Below, one piece after another: positions 1,774 to 34,062 of a stretch of DNA of 37,749 nucleotides (the stretch's first letter is position 1; each line of letters begins with the position of its first letter). The notes under the pieces were generated by a model. That model worked only from the letters and a program-made list of their open reading frames with translations, made no database searches and had not been told where the DNA came from. The DNA comes from Actinomycetes bacterium (GTDB lineage: Bacteria > Actinomycetota > Acidimicrobiia > IMCC26256 > Chersky-534). The stretch lies in contig JAODBH010000147.1 in the NCBI GenBank assembly GCA_025463865.1, positions 1 to 37,749 on the forward strand, in the 5' to 3' direction. The translations under genes were made by a program, and so were the position numbers.

Positions 1774-2574
1774 TCAGGCGTCGGCGGCCGGCTCGCCGTG
1801 GGTCGCGTTCGGACGCCCGACGCTCCAGTAGCCCTTGGCCGACATGCGATCGGGGGCGAAGCCGCGCGCCGCGAGCGTCGCCTTCAAGGCCTTCACCGTC
1901 TGGAGCTCGCCGTTGAGGTACGCGTACCCGGCTCCGGGCGGCAGCTCGGCGACGGCGAGGGCGTCATGCAGCAGGGTGGTGGTGCCGGGCTCGGCGTCGC
2001 CGCGGTGCAACCACCGCAGCCGGAGATCGGCGACCACCGCGCCGGTGGGCTGCTCGTCGAGCGGGCCGTCGACCTCGAGGAATGCGAGCGCCGGAACCCC
2101 GGCGTCGAGCGCCTCGACCATCGCGAACGTCGCCGGGATGGCCGACTCGTCGCCCGCGAACAGATGCCAGTCGACCTCGGGCTCGAGCACCACCTTCCCG
2201 CGCGGGCCGACGGCCTCGATCTCCGCACCGGGCTCGGCGCCCGCGGCCCAACGGGCGGCCGGACCGTCACCGTGGATCACGAAGTCGACGTCGACGACCA
2301 CCCGGGCGCGGTCGAAGCGCCGGATCGTGTAGCGACGTCGCACCGGCTCCGCCGCGGTAGGGATGAGGAACATCAGGTCCTGGCCCGCGACGTACCCGAA
2401 CCGGGCGAGGTCGGGGCCGGTGAACGACAGCCGGCGCACGCGCGGCGCGATCTCCGTCGCCTCCACCACCCGCAACGCCCAGGTCTCGGGCTGCGGGAGC
2501 CCGGGCGCCGACGGCGGGAGCCGCGGGCCGTCGCGACGGTTGGCGCCGGGCTCGTTCGGATTCCGATCGCTCAT
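1774..2574 (-). CDS. Siderophore-interacting protein (FAD ferric-siderophore reductase family)
   Basis: A 266-residue flavoprotein of the SIP/ViuB family, which reduces ferric siderophores in the cytoplasm to release iron. Visible signatures are the FAD-binding RRYTIR motif, DFVIHGDGPAARWA, the GDESAIPA motif of the nucleotide-binding half, and the C-terminal KGYWSVGRPNATHGE block. Its ATG overlaps the TGA of the ABC permease upstream (ATGA, 2571-2574), so translation is probably coupled to the transporter. No siderophore synthesis or TonB/SBP-type uptake gene is present, and the adjacent ABC-2 pair looks like an exporter, so an iron role is a family-level inference only. Confidence 0.9.
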   Translation of the reverse strand: MSDRNPNEPGANRRDGPRLPPSAPGLPQPETWALRVVEATEIAPRVRRLSFTGPDLARFGYVAGQDLMFLIPTAAEPVRRRYTIRRFDRARVVVDVDFVIHGDGPAARWAAGAEPGAEIEAVGPRGKVVLEPEVDWHLFAGDESAIPATFAMVEALDAGVPALAFLEVDGPLDEQPTGAVVADLRLRWLHRGDAEPGTTTLLHDALAVAELPPGAGYAYLNGELQTVKALKATLAARGFAPDRMSAKGYWSVGRPNATHGEPAADA

Positions 2575-3395
2575 GCGTCCCGCTTCATGAGGGGAATGGT
2601 GGCGAGAACGAGCGCGCCGACGACCCAGGCGAGGAACACGAGGCCGCCGGTGAGGGGCGACAGCTGATCACTGCGCCGGTGCACCACCGACAACATGCTC
2701 TGCCCGGCGTCGCCGGGCGCGTACTTCGCGAGGTGGTTCAGCCAGTCGAGCGGGATCACGTTCAGGATGATCGGCACGACGAAGATGACCCCGAACAGCG
2801 CGGTGATGGCCCCGGCCGTGCGTCGCAGCATGGTGCCGAGCGCAAGTCCGAGCAGTCCGATGCCGGTCAGGTAGAGCGGGGCACCGATCACGGCCCGGAG
2901 CACTCCCGGGTCGCCGAGGCTCGTGGCGGCAGGTGAGCCCATGAGGGCCTGGGCCGAGAAGAACGCGATGAACGCGGCGACCGCCGTGACGACGAAGACC
3001 GCGACGCCGAACGTGATGATCTTGGCGGCGAGCAGCATCCGGCGGCGGGGAACCGCGGCGAGGCTCGTGCGGATCATGCCGGTCGAGTACTCGGAGCTGA
3101 TGACCAGCACGCCGAGCACGCCGGTGGCGAGCTGGGCGAGGAAGATGCCGCTCAGGCTCGCCTGGGTGGGATCGAAGTCGCGGCCGGGCGCCTTGGAGTC
3201 GACGACCGCACCGAGCAGGATGCCGAACCCGATCACGAAGAAGACCGCAACCAACAACGTCCACATCGTGGAGCGCACCGACCGCAACTTGGTGAGCTCG
3301 GAGCGGAGCACGTTGGCGAAGCTGCGTCCGGTCGGCCGGGGTGGCACCTGCTCGCGGCCGGCGGTTGCGGGCCGGGTCGCCTCTGACGCGGTCAT
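2571..3395 (-). CDS. ABC-2 type transporter permease
   Basis: A 274-residue permease with a long polar N-terminus (about 25 residues), then SFANVLRSELTKLRSVRSTMW, the typical amphipathic entry helix of ABC-2 permeases, and six hydrophobic segments. The MIRTSLAAVPRRRMLLAAK segment after the second helix is characteristic of actinobacterial ABC-2 permeases. Its ATG overlaps the stop of the ATPase gene (ATGA at 3392-3395), so the two are translationally coupled and should form one complex. The exported substrate is unknown. Confidence 0.9.
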   Translation of the reverse strand: MTASEATRPATAGREQVPPRPTGRSFANVLRSELTKLRSVRSTMWTLLVAVFFVIGFGILLGAVVDSKAPGRDFDPTQASLSGIFLAQLATGVLGVLVISSEYSTGMIRTSLAAVPRRRMLLAAKIITFGVAVFVVTAVAAFIAFFSAQALMGSPAATSLGDPGVLRAVIGAPLYLTGIGLLGLALGTMLRRTAGAITALFGVIFVVPIILNVIPLDWLNHLAKYAPGDAGQSMLSVVHRRSDQLSPLTGGLVFLAWVVGALVLATIPLMKRDA

Positions 3396-4315
3396 TGCGC
3401 CGCTCCCGGGAACGCGCCCGTGGTGTATTCGGTCTGGTCCTTGGTCAGCTCGAAGAACGCCTCCTCGAGGGTCGGCGCCTTCGGCGTGAGCTCGTGCAGC
3501 GGAATGCCATGAGCGGCCGCGAGGTCGCCGACGCCCGCCGCGTCGAGGTCGGTGACGTCGAGCACGCCGGCGTCACCCCGCACGACGATCGCCTGTCGAG
3601 CCCCGAGCAGCACGGCGAGCTCGTCGGCCCGGGGCGACACGACCCGTACCGACGCGCCCTTGGCCGACGACGTGAGCTCGGAGACGGTGGTGTCGGCGAT
3701 GAGCTTGCCCTTGCCGATGACGATGAGGCGATCCGCGGTGAGCGCCATCTCGCTCATGAGGTGACTCGACACGAAGACGGTCCGGCCCTGCGACGCGAGC
3801 CACTTGAGCAGGTTGCGGATCCAGAGGATGCCCTCGGGGTCGAGGCCGTTGACCGGCTCGTCGAACATGAGGATCTCGGGGTCGCCGAGCAGCGCCGCCG
3901 CGATGCCGAGCCGTTGTCCCATTCCCAGCGAGAACTTGCCGACCCGCTTCTTCGCGACGTCGGTGAGGCCGACCAACCCCAAGACCTCGTCGACCCGCGA
4001 TTTCTGGATGCCGTTGCTCTGCGCGAGGCACAGCAGATGGTCGGACGCGCGGCGGCCGGGGTGCACCGCCTTGGCGTCGATGAGCGCGCCGACCTCGAAG
4101 AGCGGGTGCGACACCTCGGTGAACGGCTTGCCGTCGACCGTGACCGAACCCGCGGTGGGGTGATCGAGCCCGAGGATCATGCGCATCGTGGTCGACTTGC
4201 CCGCGCCGTTGGGCCCGAGGAAGCCGGTGACGTGACCGGGACGGACCTCGAAGCTGAGGTCGTCGACCGCGAGTTGGGAGCCGAAGCGCTTGCTGAGCCC
4301 GCGGGCTTCGATCAC
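3392..4315 (-). CDS. ABC-2 transporter ATP-binding protein
   Basis: A 307-residue ATPase. Walker A is GPNGAGKST, the signature region is SLGMGQRLGIAAALLGDP, Walker B is ILMFDEPVNGLDPEG, and the H-loop is SSHLMSEM. The C-terminal 80 residues are the accessory domain common in ABC-2/bacitracin-type ATPases. The frame stays open far upstream into the aldo-keto reductase gene. The real start is the GTG at 4315-4313, because homology begins at VIEARGLSKRFG and this GTG overlaps the TGA of the upstream gene (GTGA). It pairs with the permease at 2571-3395. Confidence 0.92.
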   Translation of the reverse strand: MIEARGLSKRFGSQLAVDDLSFEVRPGHVTGFLGPNGAGKSTTMRMILGLDHPTAGSVTVDGKPFTEVSHPLFEVGALIDAKAVHPGRRASDHLLCLAQSNGIQKSRVDEVLGLVGLTDVAKKRVGKFSLGMGQRLGIAAALLGDPEILMFDEPVNGLDPEGILWIRNLLKWLASQGRTVFVSSHLMSEMALTADRLIVIGKGKLIADTTVSELTSSAKGASVRVVSPRADELAVLLGARQAIVVRGDAGVLDVTDLDAAGVGDLAAAHGIPLHELTPKAPTLEEAFFELTKDQTEYTTGAFPGAAQ

Positions 4316-5364
4316 TGAGCGATCTCCCGCTTCTCGAGCGGGAGCCGCCGCCGGGTCACGTCGGTGATGTCGATCGGCGCGTAGGGGTTGTCGGCCACGG
4401 TGGCGTTGGTTCCGGGCGGGACCACCTGGTCGATGCGGTCCAGGGTGGCGTCGTCGAGCGCCACCGACACGCCCTCGAGCAGGTCGACGGTCTGCTCGAA
4501 CGTCCGGGGCCCGATGATCGCGGAGGTGACGGCGGGGTGGCTGAGCACGAACGCCATCGCGAGGTGGGTGAGCGAGACCCCGGCCTGGTCCGCGATCTCG
4601 ACGAGCTGCTCCACCAGGTCGAGCCGGTGCGCGTTGGCGGGCGTCTCCGGGTCGAAGCTCTCCGGGCGCAGTCGGGCCCGGCCGCTGGAGGTGTCGACGG
4701 GCTGTCCCTTGCGGTACTTGCCCGAGAGCCAGCCGCCGCTCAACGGGCTCCAGACGATCGCGCCCATGCCGTAGCGCGCGCAGGTGGGGAGCACCGATGC
4801 CTCGATGCCGCGGACGAGGATCGAGTACGGCGGCTGGTCGCAGCGGAAGCGCTCGTAGCCGCGGCGCACCGCGGCCCACTGCCCTTCGACCATCTCCTCG
4901 GCGGGGAACGTCGACTGCCCGATCGCCCGGACCTTGCCCGCGTGGACGAGATCGCTGAGCGCGCCGAGCGTCTCCTCGATGTCCGTGTCAGGGTCGGGCC
5001 GGTGGATCTGGTAGAGGTCGATGTAGTCGGTCTGCAGGCGGCGCAGGCTGTTCTCCACCTCTTCGATGATCCAGCGCCGCGAGTTTCCGGCGTGGAGGGG
5101 GTTGCTGCCCATCTGCCCGTGCACCTTGGTCGCGAGCACGACGTCGTCGCGCTTGCCCTTGAGCGCCTTGCCGACGATCTCCTCCGACTCACCCTGCGAG
5201 TACACGTCGGCGGTGTCGATGAAGTTGATGCCGTGGTCGAGTGAGTAGTCGACGATGCGGGCGCAGTCGTCGTGGTCGCGGTTGCCCCACAGGCCGAACA
5301 TCATGGCGCCGAGGCAATAGGGGCTCACCTTGATGCCGGTGCCACCCAGGGTGCGGAGTTTCAT
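4312..5364 (-). CDS. Aldo/keto reductase (first of three)
   Basis: A 350-residue NADPH-dependent aldo/keto reductase with a TIM-barrel sequence. The catalytic tetrad is visible as D50 and Y55 (INFIDTADVYSQG), K80 (VLATK) and H121 (LYQIHRPD). The C-terminal SAIIGPRTFEQ block is the NADP-binding segment of the voltage-channel-beta/YhdN-like branch. The ATG at 5364 follows a GAGGAGC ribosome site. The gene lies 36 bp after the Gfo/Idh/MocA gene and overlaps the ABC ATPase start by 4 bp, so it is in the middle of a co-transcribed run. Substrate unknown; sugars or aromatic aldehydes are common for the family. Confidence 0.93.
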   Translation of the reverse strand: MKLRTLGGTGIKVSPYCLGAMMFGLWGNRDHDDCARIVDYSLDHGINFIDTADVYSQGESEEIVGKALKGKRDDVVLATKVHGQMGSNPLHAGNSRRWIIEEVENSLRRLQTDYIDLYQIHRPDPDTDIEETLGALSDLVHAGKVRAIGQSTFPAEEMVEGQWAAVRRGYERFRCDQPPYSILVRGIEASVLPTCARYGMGAIVWSPLSGGWLSGKYRKGQPVDTSSGRARLRPESFDPETPANAHRLDLVEQLVEIADQAGVSLTHLAMAFVLSHPAVTSAIIGPRTFEQTVDLLEGVSVALDDATLDRIDQVVPPGTNATVADNPYAPIDITDVTRRRLPLEKREIAQ

Positions 5365-29827: not shown

Positions 29828-30790
29828 ATGTCACCGATCGCCGCGTCCGACGAGGGTCGTCACCCCAGCGGACCGGAGGCCCTCTGGGGCGAGTCGTGGT
29901 ACTTCGACTTCGCCGCGTCCGACGGCTCCTACGGTGGCTACGTCCGCCTCGGGCTGTACCCGAACCGCGGCGTGGCCTGGTTCTGGCTCGCGCTCGTGCA
30001 TCCCGACCGGCCGCTCGTGTTCATCCGCGATCACGCGGTACCCGTCCCGAACGGCGAAGCACTCGTGCTCGACGGGGGCGCCTACCGCGCCGAGATCCGG
30101 GCCGACCAGCCCCTCGAGCGGTGGAGCGTGGTCGTCCGGGGCGCGGCGCGATCGCGTGACGACCCGGCGGGAGCGTTCCACGACGCGCCGACCGCGTGGA
30201 CCGACGTCGACGTGCGGCTCGAGTGGGTGGCCGCTGCACCCGTGTTCGAGTACGCGCTCACGACGCGGTACGAGCAGACGAGCCACGTCACCGGCAGCTT
30301 CACGGTCGATGGCCGCACCACCGCGGTCGACGCGCCCGGGCAGCGCGACCACTCGTGGGGCGTGCGGGATTGGTGGGACAACCCGTGGTGCTGGTCGGCG
30401 GGCACCTTCGCCGACGGCCGCGCGTTCCACCTCCTCAACACGGTCTTTCCGGGCGGCGGGAGCTACACCACCGGATACACCGTCGCCGCGGTGCGCGGCG
30501 CCGAGGGCTGGACCGAGGTGACCGCCGGCGCGGTCGACGCCGTCCTCGACCCCGAGCTCCTCCCGACCACCGTCGGGCTCATGGTGGGGGACCTTGCCGT
30601 CACCGCCGCGCCCATCGCGCACGCACCCCTGCTGCTCGTGTCCGACGACGGCCGCGAGTCGCGCTTCGCGCGCACGCTCATGCACTACGTCGACGCCGAC
30701 GGCATCGAGGGCACCGGTTGGCTCGAGAGCAACTGGCCGCCGGGGACCGCGCCCGAAACCGCACCCACGGCCTCGCCCGCCGAGACATGA
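29828..30790 (+). CDS. CrtC/AttH-like lipocalin-fold protein (DUF7064 type, tentative)
   Basis: A 320-residue, beta-rich soluble protein without signal peptide. The conserved block GQRDHSWGVRDWW (171-183) with the following NPWCWSAGTFADGRAFH is typical of proteins related to hydroxyneurosporene synthase and AttH, two-lipocalin-domain proteins that bind or hydrate isoprenoid or steroid-like molecules. The N-terminal half (WYFDFAASDGSYGGYVRLGLYPN) matches the first domain of that group. Specific function unknown. It opens a four-gene operon in which every junction is a 4-bp overlap. Confidence 0.75.
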   Translation: MSPIAASDEGRHPSGPEALWGESWYFDFAASDGSYGGYVRLGLYPNRGVAWFWLALVHPDRPLVFIRDHAVPVPNGEALVLDGGAYRAEIRADQPLERWSVVVRGAARSRDDPAGAFHDAPTAWTDVDVRLEWVAAAPVFEYALTTRYEQTSHVTGSFTVDGRTTAVDAPGQRDHSWGVRDWWDNPWCWSAGTFADGRAFHLLNTVFPGGGSYTTGYTVAAVRGAEGWTEVTAGAVDAVLDPELLPTTVGLMVGDLAVTAAPIAHAPLLLVSDDGRESRFARTLMHYVDADGIEGTGWLESNWPPGTAPETAPTASPAET

Positions 30791-31275
30791 CGGCCGCGGA
30801 TCCCAAGCGAACCGGGCTCGACGACGCGCTGGCGCGGTGGCGGGCTGCGGGCGACGACCTTCAGCGCGCGCTCGAGGCCGCGGTCGCAGCGGGGGCGTCG
30901 CTCGCCGGGGTCGATCTCAACGGCGCGCTGCTCCGCGGGGCACGGCTCGGCGGTGCGCAACTTGCCGGTGCCGTGCTCGACGGCGCGTTTCTCGAGGGCG
31001 CCGACCTCCAAAGGGCCGACCTTCGCGGCGCGCAGCTCCACGCGGCCTTCCTGTGGGGAGCCCAGCTGGGCGACGCCGACCTCACCGACGCCGTGCTCCA
31101 CGGCGCAAACTTGCATGGCGTCGACGCGACCGGCGCGTGCCTGCGCAACGCGGATCTCACCGAGGTCATGGCGTTCAAGGCCGACTTCACCGGTGCCGAT
31201 CTCACCGGTGTCCGCCACGACTCGCTCACCCACTGGCCCGCGGGTTTCGCGGCCCCGACGCAGGAGACCCCATGA
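30787..31275 (+). CDS. Pentapeptide-repeat protein
   Basis: A 162-residue protein. After a helical N-terminus (1-35) come about 21 tandem A-[DNQ]-L-x-x pentads (37-142), for example GADLQRADLRGAQL, predicting a right-handed quadrilateral beta-helix; a short tail follows. Family members include DNA-mimic gyrase protectors (MfpA, Qnr) and many scaffold proteins. The electrostatics here are not strongly acidic, so DNA mimicry is not evident. The ATG overlaps the previous stop (ATGA, 30787-30790). Confidence 0.9.
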   Translation: MTAADPKRTGLDDALARWRAAGDDLQRALEAAVAAGASLAGVDLNGALLRGARLGGAQLAGAVLDGAFLEGADLQRADLRGAQLHAAFLWGAQLGDADLTDAVLHGANLHGVDATGACLRNADLTEVMAFKADFTGADLTGVRHDSLTHWPAGFAAPTQETP

Positions 31276-31652
31276 CCGAAGGGATCGGTTGGCTCCGCGG
31301 CGTCATCTTCGACGCCGAGGACCCCGAGAAGCTCGCCGCCTTCTGGCAGGCCGTGCTCGGCGTCGGCGTGGCCAAGCGGGTGCCTGGATGGATCGCGTTG
31401 GAGCCCGGCCGCACCGGCGTGCTGCTGGCGTTCCAGCCCGTCGACGAGGAACGGCCGAAGACGATCAAGGTGCGGCTCGACATCGTCGTCGAGGAGCTCG
31501 AGCACACCACCGAGCAGGTCGTGGCCCTCGGCGCCACCCTCGTCGACGTCGTGCACTTCAAGCCCGGGGAGGAGCACCGGGTGTTCACCGACCCGGAAGG
31601 CAACCAGTTCAACCTCGTGCTGCCCGAGCCGGAGGCGGAGCCCGTGTCATGA
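31272..31652 (+). CDS. VOC (glyoxalase-like) protein
   Basis: A 126-residue protein of the glyoxalase-like VOC type: GVIFDAEDPEKLAAFWQAVLG at the N-terminus and VFTDPEGNQFNLVLPE at the end. The usual first histidine is replaced (RGVIFDA), so the full metal set is not present and it may bind a ligand rather than catalyse. ATG overlaps the stop of the pentapeptide gene, and its own stop overlaps the next start. Confidence 0.85.
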   Translation: MTEGIGWLRGVIFDAEDPEKLAAFWQAVLGVGVAKRVPGWIALEPGRTGVLLAFQPVDEERPKTIKVRLDIVVEELEHTTEQVVALGATLVDVVHFKPGEEHRVFTDPEGNQFNLVLPEPEAEPVS

Positions 31653-32635
31653 GCGCGGTGTCGCCGCCCGAGTACCTCGTGATCGCGACGCGGGGCATCC
31701 TCGGCGCGCTCACGGCCGGTGGGACCACGCCGACCGAGCTGCAGCTCGACATCCTCGACACGCTCAACCGATCCGTGTTCGGCATCGAGGTCGACGTCGG
31801 CGGCCTCACGCCTCTCGGACCGACGGAGCTCGCGGCGATGCTGCCTGATCACCGGGTCCGGCGGGTCGTGATCCAATCGATGGTCGCGCTCGAGCTGATG
31901 CGGCACCCGCTCCCCGGTCCCGTCGCGAGCGCCACCAAGCTCTACGCACGCGCGCTGGGCATCGACGAGCCGATGGTCACCACGGCGCGCCGCTACGCAC
32001 ACCACCAAGTGGGGCTGATGTACGCCGACATCATCCGCAACGACTGGTACACCGAGGAGACCCGCCACGAGATCCTGCACGGCAAGATGCGGGAGCTGCT
32101 GCGCTCCAAGGTCGCCTACACGGGCATCGTCGAAGACCGCGCGATCGCGGCCAAGTGGCAGGGGCTCGGCGACTGCCCTCCCGGCAGCTGGGGCCGCGCC
32201 GTCTTCGACTACTACCGCGCGCACCAGTTCCCGTTTCCGGGCGAGAAGCGCGGGATCTACGAGATCGGAGCCCATCACGACTTCGTGCACGTGCTCACCG
32301 GCTATCCGCCCGACCCGGAGGGGGAGATCGACGTGTTCACCTTCATCGCGACCACGATGAAGGACCCGCGGGGCTTCACGCTCCTCGTCGTCACCCTCGG
32401 TCTCTTCCAGAACGCGAGCATCAAGCACGTAGCCGGCAAGAAGGTGCAGATCGCGCGCGCCGACACGCTCTCCGATCCCGGCGCGGTGGGCCGATTCGTC
32501 GATGCCCTCGAGCGCGGCATGTCGTGCAACGTCGACGTGATGGACGGCATCGACCACTTCGCGCTCGCCCCCGAGAACCTCGACGAGCTGCGGAAGCGGT
32601 TCGCCATCCCGCCGATCGCGTCGCCGCGGACCTAG
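31649..32635 (+). CDS. COQ4-like protein
   Basis: A 328-residue protein. Its middle carries HDFVH (210-214) followed after 11 residues by E226 (VLTGYPPDPEGE), the HDxxH-x11-E zinc motif of COQ4, which in eukaryotes and some bacteria acts at C1 of coenzyme Q precursors. Flanking YEIGAHHDFVHVLTG and the helical IDVFTFIATTM also fit that fold. Residues 1-200 are a helical N-terminal part that I do not recognise. A COQ4 role is family inference; actinobacteria generally use menaquinone. Last gene of the 29828 operon; its stop shares 4 bp with the convergent MFS gene. Confidence 0.7.
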   Translation: MSAVSPPEYLVIATRGILGALTAGGTTPTELQLDILDTLNRSVFGIEVDVGGLTPLGPTELAAMLPDHRVRRVVIQSMVALELMRHPLPGPVASATKLYARALGIDEPMVTTARRYAHHQVGLMYADIIRNDWYTEETRHEILHGKMRELLRSKVAYTGIVEDRAIAAKWQGLGDCPPGSWGRAVFDYYRAHQFPFPGEKRGIYEIGAHHDFVHVLTGYPPDPEGEIDVFTFIATTMKDPRGFTLLVVTLGLFQNASIKHVAGKKVQIARADTLSDPGAVGRFVDALERGMSCNVDVMDGIDHFALAPENLDELRKRFAIPPIASPRT

Positions 32636-34062
32636 CTCCCGGCGCGGCCGTTCGTACGGGCGATCATCGGCAACGTCACGCCGACCGCGGTGGCGACGGC
32701 CACGAACAACATGGTCGGACGCAGCGCGTGCACGAAGGCGGTCTCGCTGGACGAGCCCGCGGCGACGGTGTGGGAGGCGGCGCCGAACACCGCCCCGGTG
32801 ACCGCGAGGCCGAAGAGGCTTCCGAGCTGGCGCACCGCCGAGATCGCGCCCGACGCGACACCGGCCTTGTCGGTGCTGCACGCGTCCATGGCCGCGACGT
32901 TCGACACGTTGAACGCCAGGCCCTGGCCGAGCCCCGACAGCACGAGCCCCGTGAGCACGAGCGCCAGACCGTCGTCGGCACCCAACGCCGCGAAGCACGC
33001 GAACGACACTGCCAGCAACGCCATGCCCACGGCCATGAGTCGGACCGCGCTCCCGATCGCGAGCAGCCGGCCGATGAGCCGGGCCGTCAACGCGAGCGGG
33101 ATCGTGAACGCGAGGAGGATGACGCCGCTGGCGGCGGAGCTGCGGTGCTGGACCTCCTGGAGGTAGAGCGCCAAGTAGAACATCGCGGCCGCGAAGCCGA
33201 AGTTGGCGAACCACCCCACCGCCGCGGCGGCCGCGAACGCGCGGCTCCGAAACACGCGGAGGTCGACGAGCGGTGCGGCCCCGCGGCGCTCGACGGCGAC
33301 GAAGGTCACGAGGAGCGCGGCGCCAACGACGAGCCCGGTCACGACGTCGGGCCGACCCCAACCGGCACCGGGCCCCTCGAGCAGCCCGTACACGAGCAGC
33401 ACCAATCCGCCGGTGACGGTGACGAGTCCGGCGACGTCGAGCCGGCCCGACACCGTCGCGTCCCGACTCTCGCGCACACCTCGGACCGTCAGGAACGCGG
33501 CCACCAGGGTGAGCGGGAGGCTGAGGACGAAGAACCCGCGCCACGACCACACGTCGGCCACGACTCCGGCTACCAACGGCCCCACCGCCGAACCCACCGC
33601 GCCGGTGGCGCTCCAGATGCCGATCGCCGCCGCGCGCGCGCCGTCGGGGAACGCGTCGCTGACGATCGACAACGACGTCGCGGTCACCAGCGCGGCGCCG
33701 AGGCCCTGCAGGGTCCGTCCCGCGATCAGCATCCCGGTCGACGTCGAGAGCGCGCCGACGACCGACGCGCAGGCGAAGAGCCCGAGTCCGACGAGCGCAA
33801 CCCGCTTCCGTCCGAAGATGTCGCCGAGCCGGCCGGCCGCGAGCAGGCAGGCGGCGAGGCTGAGCATGTACGAGTTGGCGATCCACAGAAGCGTCGACTG
33901 GCTCCCTCCGAGATCGGCCCGGACGTGGGGGAGCAGGACGTTGAGACCGAAGAAGTCGACCGTCAGGGCGACGTTGGCCAGCGACATCGCGACCAGCGCC
34001 GCTCGGGGGGATCGGCGGGTCGGATCGCCCGCGGGCGGGGAGGTGGCGGCCTCGGTGTCCAT
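32632..34062 (-). CDS. MFS transporter, DHA2 (14-TMS) drug-exporter type
   Basis: A 476-residue transporter with about 14 hydrophobic helices. The loop motif LAAGRLGDIFGRKRVALVG (motif A) follows helix 2, and LQGLGAALVTATSLSIV is motif B; motif C-like sequence (ATGAVGSAVGPLVAGVV) marks an antiporter of the EmrB/QacA group. It should export toxic compounds using the proton gradient; substrate unknown. ATG at 34062. Divergent from cysI with a 123-bp gap in which no clear operator was seen. Confidence 0.93.
   Translation of the reverse strand: MDTEAATSPPAGDPTRRSPRAALVAMSLANVALTVDFFGLNVLLPHVRADLGGSQSTLLWIANSYMLSLAACLLAAGRLGDIFGRKRVALVGLGLFACASVVGALSTSTGMLIAGRTLQGLGAALVTATSLSIVSDAFPDGARAAAIGIWSATGAVGSAVGPLVAGVVADVWSWRGFFVLSLPLTLVAAFLTVRGVRESRDATVSGRLDVAGLVTVTGGLVLLVYGLLEGPGAGWGRPDVVTGLVVGAALLVTFVAVERRGAAPLVDLRVFRSRAFAAAAAVGWFANFGFAAAMFYLALYLQEVQHRSSAASGVILLAFTIPLALTARLIGRLLAIGSAVRLMAVGMALLAVSFACFAALGADDGLALVLTGLVLSGLGQGLAFNVSNVAAMDACSTDKAGVASGAISAVRQLGSLFGLAVTGAVFGAASHTVAAGSSSETAFVHALRPTMLFVAVATAVGVTLPMIARTNGRAGS

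Follow-up and report, generated by a model that had tools for sequence, protein, structure and literature searches.

In the 37,749-nt stretch of Acidimicrobiia DNA analysed here (the window, contig JAODBH010000147.1), a VOC gene and a COQ4-like gene at the end of a tightly packed four-gene run, together with a convergent MFS transporter gene, belong to a gene neighbourhood that is conserved in the Acidimicrobiia. The interpretation that we favour, tentatively and as coming close to being probable, is a cassette whose products bind, modify and export one lipophilic molecule, with the first two genes of the run as genus-specific additions. The features of the locus are:

29828-30790, plus strand: gene 1, two-lipocalin CrtC/AttH-fold protein with DUF7065 and DUF7064, 320 aa (Pfam and predicted structure)
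30787-30790, plus strand: ATGA overlap of genes 1 and 2, read from the sequence and kept in the sister species
30787-31275, plus strand: gene 2, pentapeptide-repeat protein of 162 aa with roughly 20 repeats (Pentapeptide E 2e-38; repeat register)
31272-31275, plus strand: ATGA overlap of genes 2 and 3, with AGGAG just 5′ of the overlap
31272-31652, plus strand: gene 3, VOC protein, Glyoxalase_6, 126 aa, core cassette member (E 2e-23; subfamily distribution)
31649-31652, plus strand: ATGA overlap of genes 3 and 4
31649-32635, plus strand: gene 4, predicted N-terminal TerB-like domain and C-terminal COQ4-like domain, 328 aa, core cassette member (motif, profile and fold)
32632-34062, minus strand: DHA2/EmrB-type MFS exporter, 476 aa, core cassette member (MFS_1 E 1.5e-52)

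Genes 1 to 4 lie in tandem and each overlaps the next. A sequence-only reading of the region had described a four-gene run with an ATGA at every junction; its coordinates are exact, and the same gene order with all three 4-bp overlaps is found in the one sister species compared for conservation (G001, an Acidimicrobiia MAG, contig JADGOM010000076.1). Between the two species the genes are 75, 75, 95 and 84% identical, respectively, with dN/dS values of 0.29, 0.31, 0.10 and 0.19. Since these values stay within 0.10–0.31 and both order and overlaps are kept, all four genes look real and under selection. They are probably co-transcribed as an operon; scanning for sigma-70 promoters and terminators gave no signal above chance. 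The MFS gene, whose stop overlaps that of gene 4, lies beyond the stretch covered by the sequence-only reading and, being convergent, is outside the operon in the window.

The neighbourhood was defined around close homologs of gene 4 (at least 43% identity), which occupy 15 loci, the window included, and form one clade in a FastTree tree, apart from distant paralogs. Within 5 kb of the close homologs we found a VOC gene at 13 of the 15 loci, a DHA2-type MFS gene also at 13, and a gene of an unannotated family, cl15, at 9, whereas each of the three was present at 0 of 18 loci with distant COQ4-like paralogs. The difference between 13/15 and 0/18 corresponds to a Fisher P-value of 1.8e-7 for VOC and equally for MFS, both of which are large families. 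Membership of the cassette is stable while gene order and strand vary among loci. The VOC and COQ4-like genes overlap by 4 bp in G038 and G034 and by 1 bp in G023, and 4-bp overlaps join the MFS and COQ4-like genes in G121 and in G695, the latter from another class. At loci without one of the members, the missing genes are on other contigs or the locus is at a contig end. In the split assembly of G038, VOC-COQ4 and cl15-MFS lie on separate contigs, the latter on C94; that of G044 keeps COQ4-cl15 together, with VOC-MFS on C12; and contig C473 of G029 carries a gene-4 fragment with MFS and cl15.

Co-occurrence across genomes gives the same picture. Close gene 4 has a patchy distribution, being present in 13 of 395 genomes of the class (~3%); the VOC subfamily occurs in 18 genomes, all 13 gene-4 carriers among them, and cl15 in 11, ten of which have close gene 4 while the eleventh is G029 with its gene-4 fragment. 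Hypergeometric P-values for the co-occurrence of the three range from 1e-16 to 1e-20, with VOC and cl15 profiles that were built partly from loci found via gene 4. When only genomes unused for the VOC profile were considered, 5/5 gene-4 carriers were recovered among 8 VOC matches. The cassette combines known families and one unannotated family in a new way; a search of the open-access literature returned no paper on COQ4 with VOC and pentapeptide proteins, nor on a ‘Coq4 family protein’ gene cluster.

The cl15 proteins (alignment A4) are about 300 aa long and share invariant EExxLH, TELxRR and GTxP motifs. Members include:

L036:11928-12803: cl15 family protein
L113:4833-5903: cl15 family protein

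The one member scanned had no Pfam match, and the family had no convincing NCBIfam or PDB match; cl15 is thus a conserved protein family newly defined here. It is absent from the draft assemblies of the window genome (93.5% complete) and the sister species.

Gene 4 had been called COQ4-like from its sequence. It scores 15.7 bits against Pfam PF05019, under the cut-off of 22.9, as its relatives also do, yet the call is supported by profile, fold and motif. The family profile matches PDB entries 3msq (E 3.5e-9) and 6e12 (E 3e-7), the structural model has the COQ4 fold (Foldseek match to 6e12, probability 1.0, E 2e-4), and the zinc motif HDxxHx11E is present at residues 210–226 (HDFVHVLTGYPPDPEGE), with H210, D211, H214 and E226 invariant across a set of 26 homologs. 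The first 115 or so residues make up a separate helical domain which, judging by its Foldseek match to 2h5n, may be TerB-like. Gene 4 therefore resembles COQ4 (PF05019; solved relatives Alr8543 6e12 and 3msq) in motif and fold, with a hydrophobic-ligand pocket to be expected, and differs from it in the putative TerB-like fusion, the sub-cut-off Pfam score and the adjoining VOC and MFS genes. COQ4 itself is a Zn-dependent C1 decarboxylase in vitro (PMC7615680) and is described in a review as an oxidative decarboxylase (PMC11495197). By analogy, the COQ4-like protein could perform decarboxylation- or hydroxylation-type chemistry; it is a remote relative, so its reaction may differ from that of COQ4.

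Gene 3 was correctly recognised as VOC: it reaches 83.5 bits against Glyoxalase_6 (PF18029, cut-off 23.6). Domain and length are those of other Glyoxalase_6 proteins, and the conserved linkage to a COQ4-like protein sets it apart. By eye, the usual VOC metal ligands appear not to be conserved in alignment A3, which makes ligand binding likelier than metal catalysis. The MFS protein is above the MFS_1 cut-off (179 bits) and below that of EmrB TIGR00711 (197.6 bits, cut-off 230.2); its best models are the drug exporters TcmA, LmrA, QepA and LfrA, with every specific cut-off missed. It is thus of the same family as these EmrB/DHA2 exporters and unlike them in its scores and in its linkage to COQ4-like and VOC genes. 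Cassette MFS proteins are only 30–44% identical outside the genus.

Under the binding, modification and export interpretation, the lipophilic molecule would be bound in the pocket of the TerB-COQ4 protein and undergo metal-dependent chemistry there, the VOC protein would bind or sequester the same molecule, and the DHA2 MFS protein would export it. Action on a single substrate and the outward direction of transport are presumed. Most other carriers also encode a cl15 protein, presumably as a further partner. In the genus of the window, the VOC-COQ4 pair has come to follow a hydratase/lyase-like gene of the CrtC/AttH fold and a gene for pentapeptide repeats within a single tight operon, where any role of the two preceding genes is likewise presumptive. 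The cassette may serve either biosynthesis or detoxification.

A dedicated resistance or self-protection function, in which the exporter, sequestration by VOC and modification by the COQ4-like protein clear a toxic lipophilic antibiotic or xenobiotic, is in our view unlikely. Drug exporters as the top MFS models and the distribution over 3% of class genomes would fit it, as would the VOC fold, which includes antibiotic-binding resistance proteins. In the genus, target protection by the pentapeptide protein (gene 2) could come on top, and its repeat region, which is acidic (net –7), points the same way. The pentapeptide-repeat assignment of gene 2 is correct. However, identity as an MfpA/Qnr topoisomerase-protecting protein was rejected, with scores far under the NCBIfam cut-offs (42 bits against 360, and 22 against 240), and our search of relatives revealed a clear ortholog in the sister species only and no clear one outside the genus. 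Also against this function, neither a regulator nor a biosynthetic gene is a constant neighbour among the loci compared. The PADLOC defence models gave no match either, and an anti-phage defence role was dropped.

The sequence-only reading had suggested that all four families could make up a single undescribed system modifying isoprenoids or quinones, at fixed stoichiometry; in the version weighed here, gene 1 would contribute the hydratase/lyase chemistry while gene 2 served as a scaffold. Conservation of the four genes and their overlaps between two species under purifying selection, at 75–95% identity, is in line with this, as are the COQ4 fold of gene 4 and the fold of gene 1. For the latter, the CrtC/AttH call proved right at the fold level: DUF7065 and DUF7064 score 54–56 bits, exceeding the cut-off, and the AlphaFold model (pLDDT 90.6) has the two-lipocalin fold, its top Foldseek match being the 25-phosphosteroid lyase 9fzn (E 1.8e-12), with AttH (2ich), kievitone hydratase and the Fsa2/Phm7 pericyclases also matched, among them enzymes of isoprenoid or steroid side chains and of polyketides. 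The likeness is one of fold (Foldseek probability 1.0), whereas identity to these proteins is 12–14% and gene 1 belongs to the DUF7065/DUF7064 family; against the Rv3169 family (NCBIfam NF053593) it reaches 42.7 bits, under the cut-off of 150.

Genomic context argues against a single pathway. Orthologs of gene 1 are widespread in the order (44–51% identity), and outside the genus they adjoin amidohydrolase, SnoaL, SDR, acyl-CoA dehydrogenase, PLP decarboxylase and BKACE genes. Only in one case elsewhere (G041) is gene 1 beside a COQ4-like gene, the latter being a distant paralog (31%), with two opposite-strand genes between. Neither gene 1 nor gene 2 occurs near any of the 13 close gene-4 loci outside the genus, where genes 3 and 4 have other partners. 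The four-gene set is therefore confined to this genus, close to the outcome that the sequence-only reading had itself named as its refutation. What stands of the proposed system is that VOC and COQ4-like genes share a conserved undescribed cassette; the CrtC-like and pentapeptide genes drop out, replaced by MFS and cl15. We consider the single pathway quite improbable, while the substrate may be an isoprenoid or a quinone. When relocation of gene 1 from the amidohydrolase locus was considered, the amidohydrolase beside its orthologs elsewhere gave 17 matches in the window genome. This amidohydrolase belongs to a large paralog family, with 16–17 matches per genome in G000 and G001.

The packing of the genes was compared with that of other junctions. 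Of the 26 junctions between codirectional genes in the window, 8 have overlaps of 4 bp (31%, by a simple gene caller); in related high-GC loci the figure is 56 of 310 (18%). The window also holds a second run of three consecutive junctions of this kind:

1774-5364, minus strand: SIP (siderophore-interacting protein), ABC-2 permease, ABC ATPase and aldo-keto reductase genes, with three successive 4-bp overlaps

The ATGA packing of the four-gene run is no more than ordinary for the window. Fixed stoichiometry had been deduced from such strict coupling; because these junctions are frequent and link unrelated genes as well, as in the second run, stoichiometry is unreadable from the overlaps, and we discarded coupling as evidence for it. 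Compaction without function, i.e. four unrelated genes sharing a promoter with the 4-bp overlap as default spacing, agrees with these frequencies, with the functionally mixed second run and with family f12, where the VOC-COQ4 pair sits behind a DUF3097 gene, likewise with a 4-bp overlap, and it may well be correct for genes 1 and 2, but it leaves the co-occurrence of VOC, COQ4, MFS and cl15 unexplained and is a quite improbable account of the whole.

Within the conserved-cassette interpretation a more specific proposal can be made, which we regard as possible although somewhat doubtful: that the patchy actinobacterial system of TerB-COQ4, VOC, DHA2 exporter and the new family produces or detoxifies, and also exports, a molecule that is prenylated or resembles a quinone; this would be a COQ4-type reaction outside ubiquinone synthesis. 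The host class of the gene-4 carriers is not expected to make ubiquinone. COQ4-like proteins occur in bacteria not thought to do so, and through the linkage to an exporter, a VOC protein and a new family there is now a handle on their partners and likely substrate class.

Among COQ4-like proteins outside the cassette, distant TerB-COQ4 paralogs are followed, with overlaps of 4 or 1 bp, by a gene for a weakly ABM-like protein of about 108 aa, a second conserved COQ4-like pair:

L042:10190-10516: weakly ABM-like gene
L043:145-465: weakly ABM-like gene
L045:11462-11794: weakly ABM-like gene
L047:7659-7985: weakly ABM-like gene
L053:3873-4202: weakly ABM-like gene

In family f13, COQ4-like copies are expanded per genome, with 7 matches each in G013 and G049.
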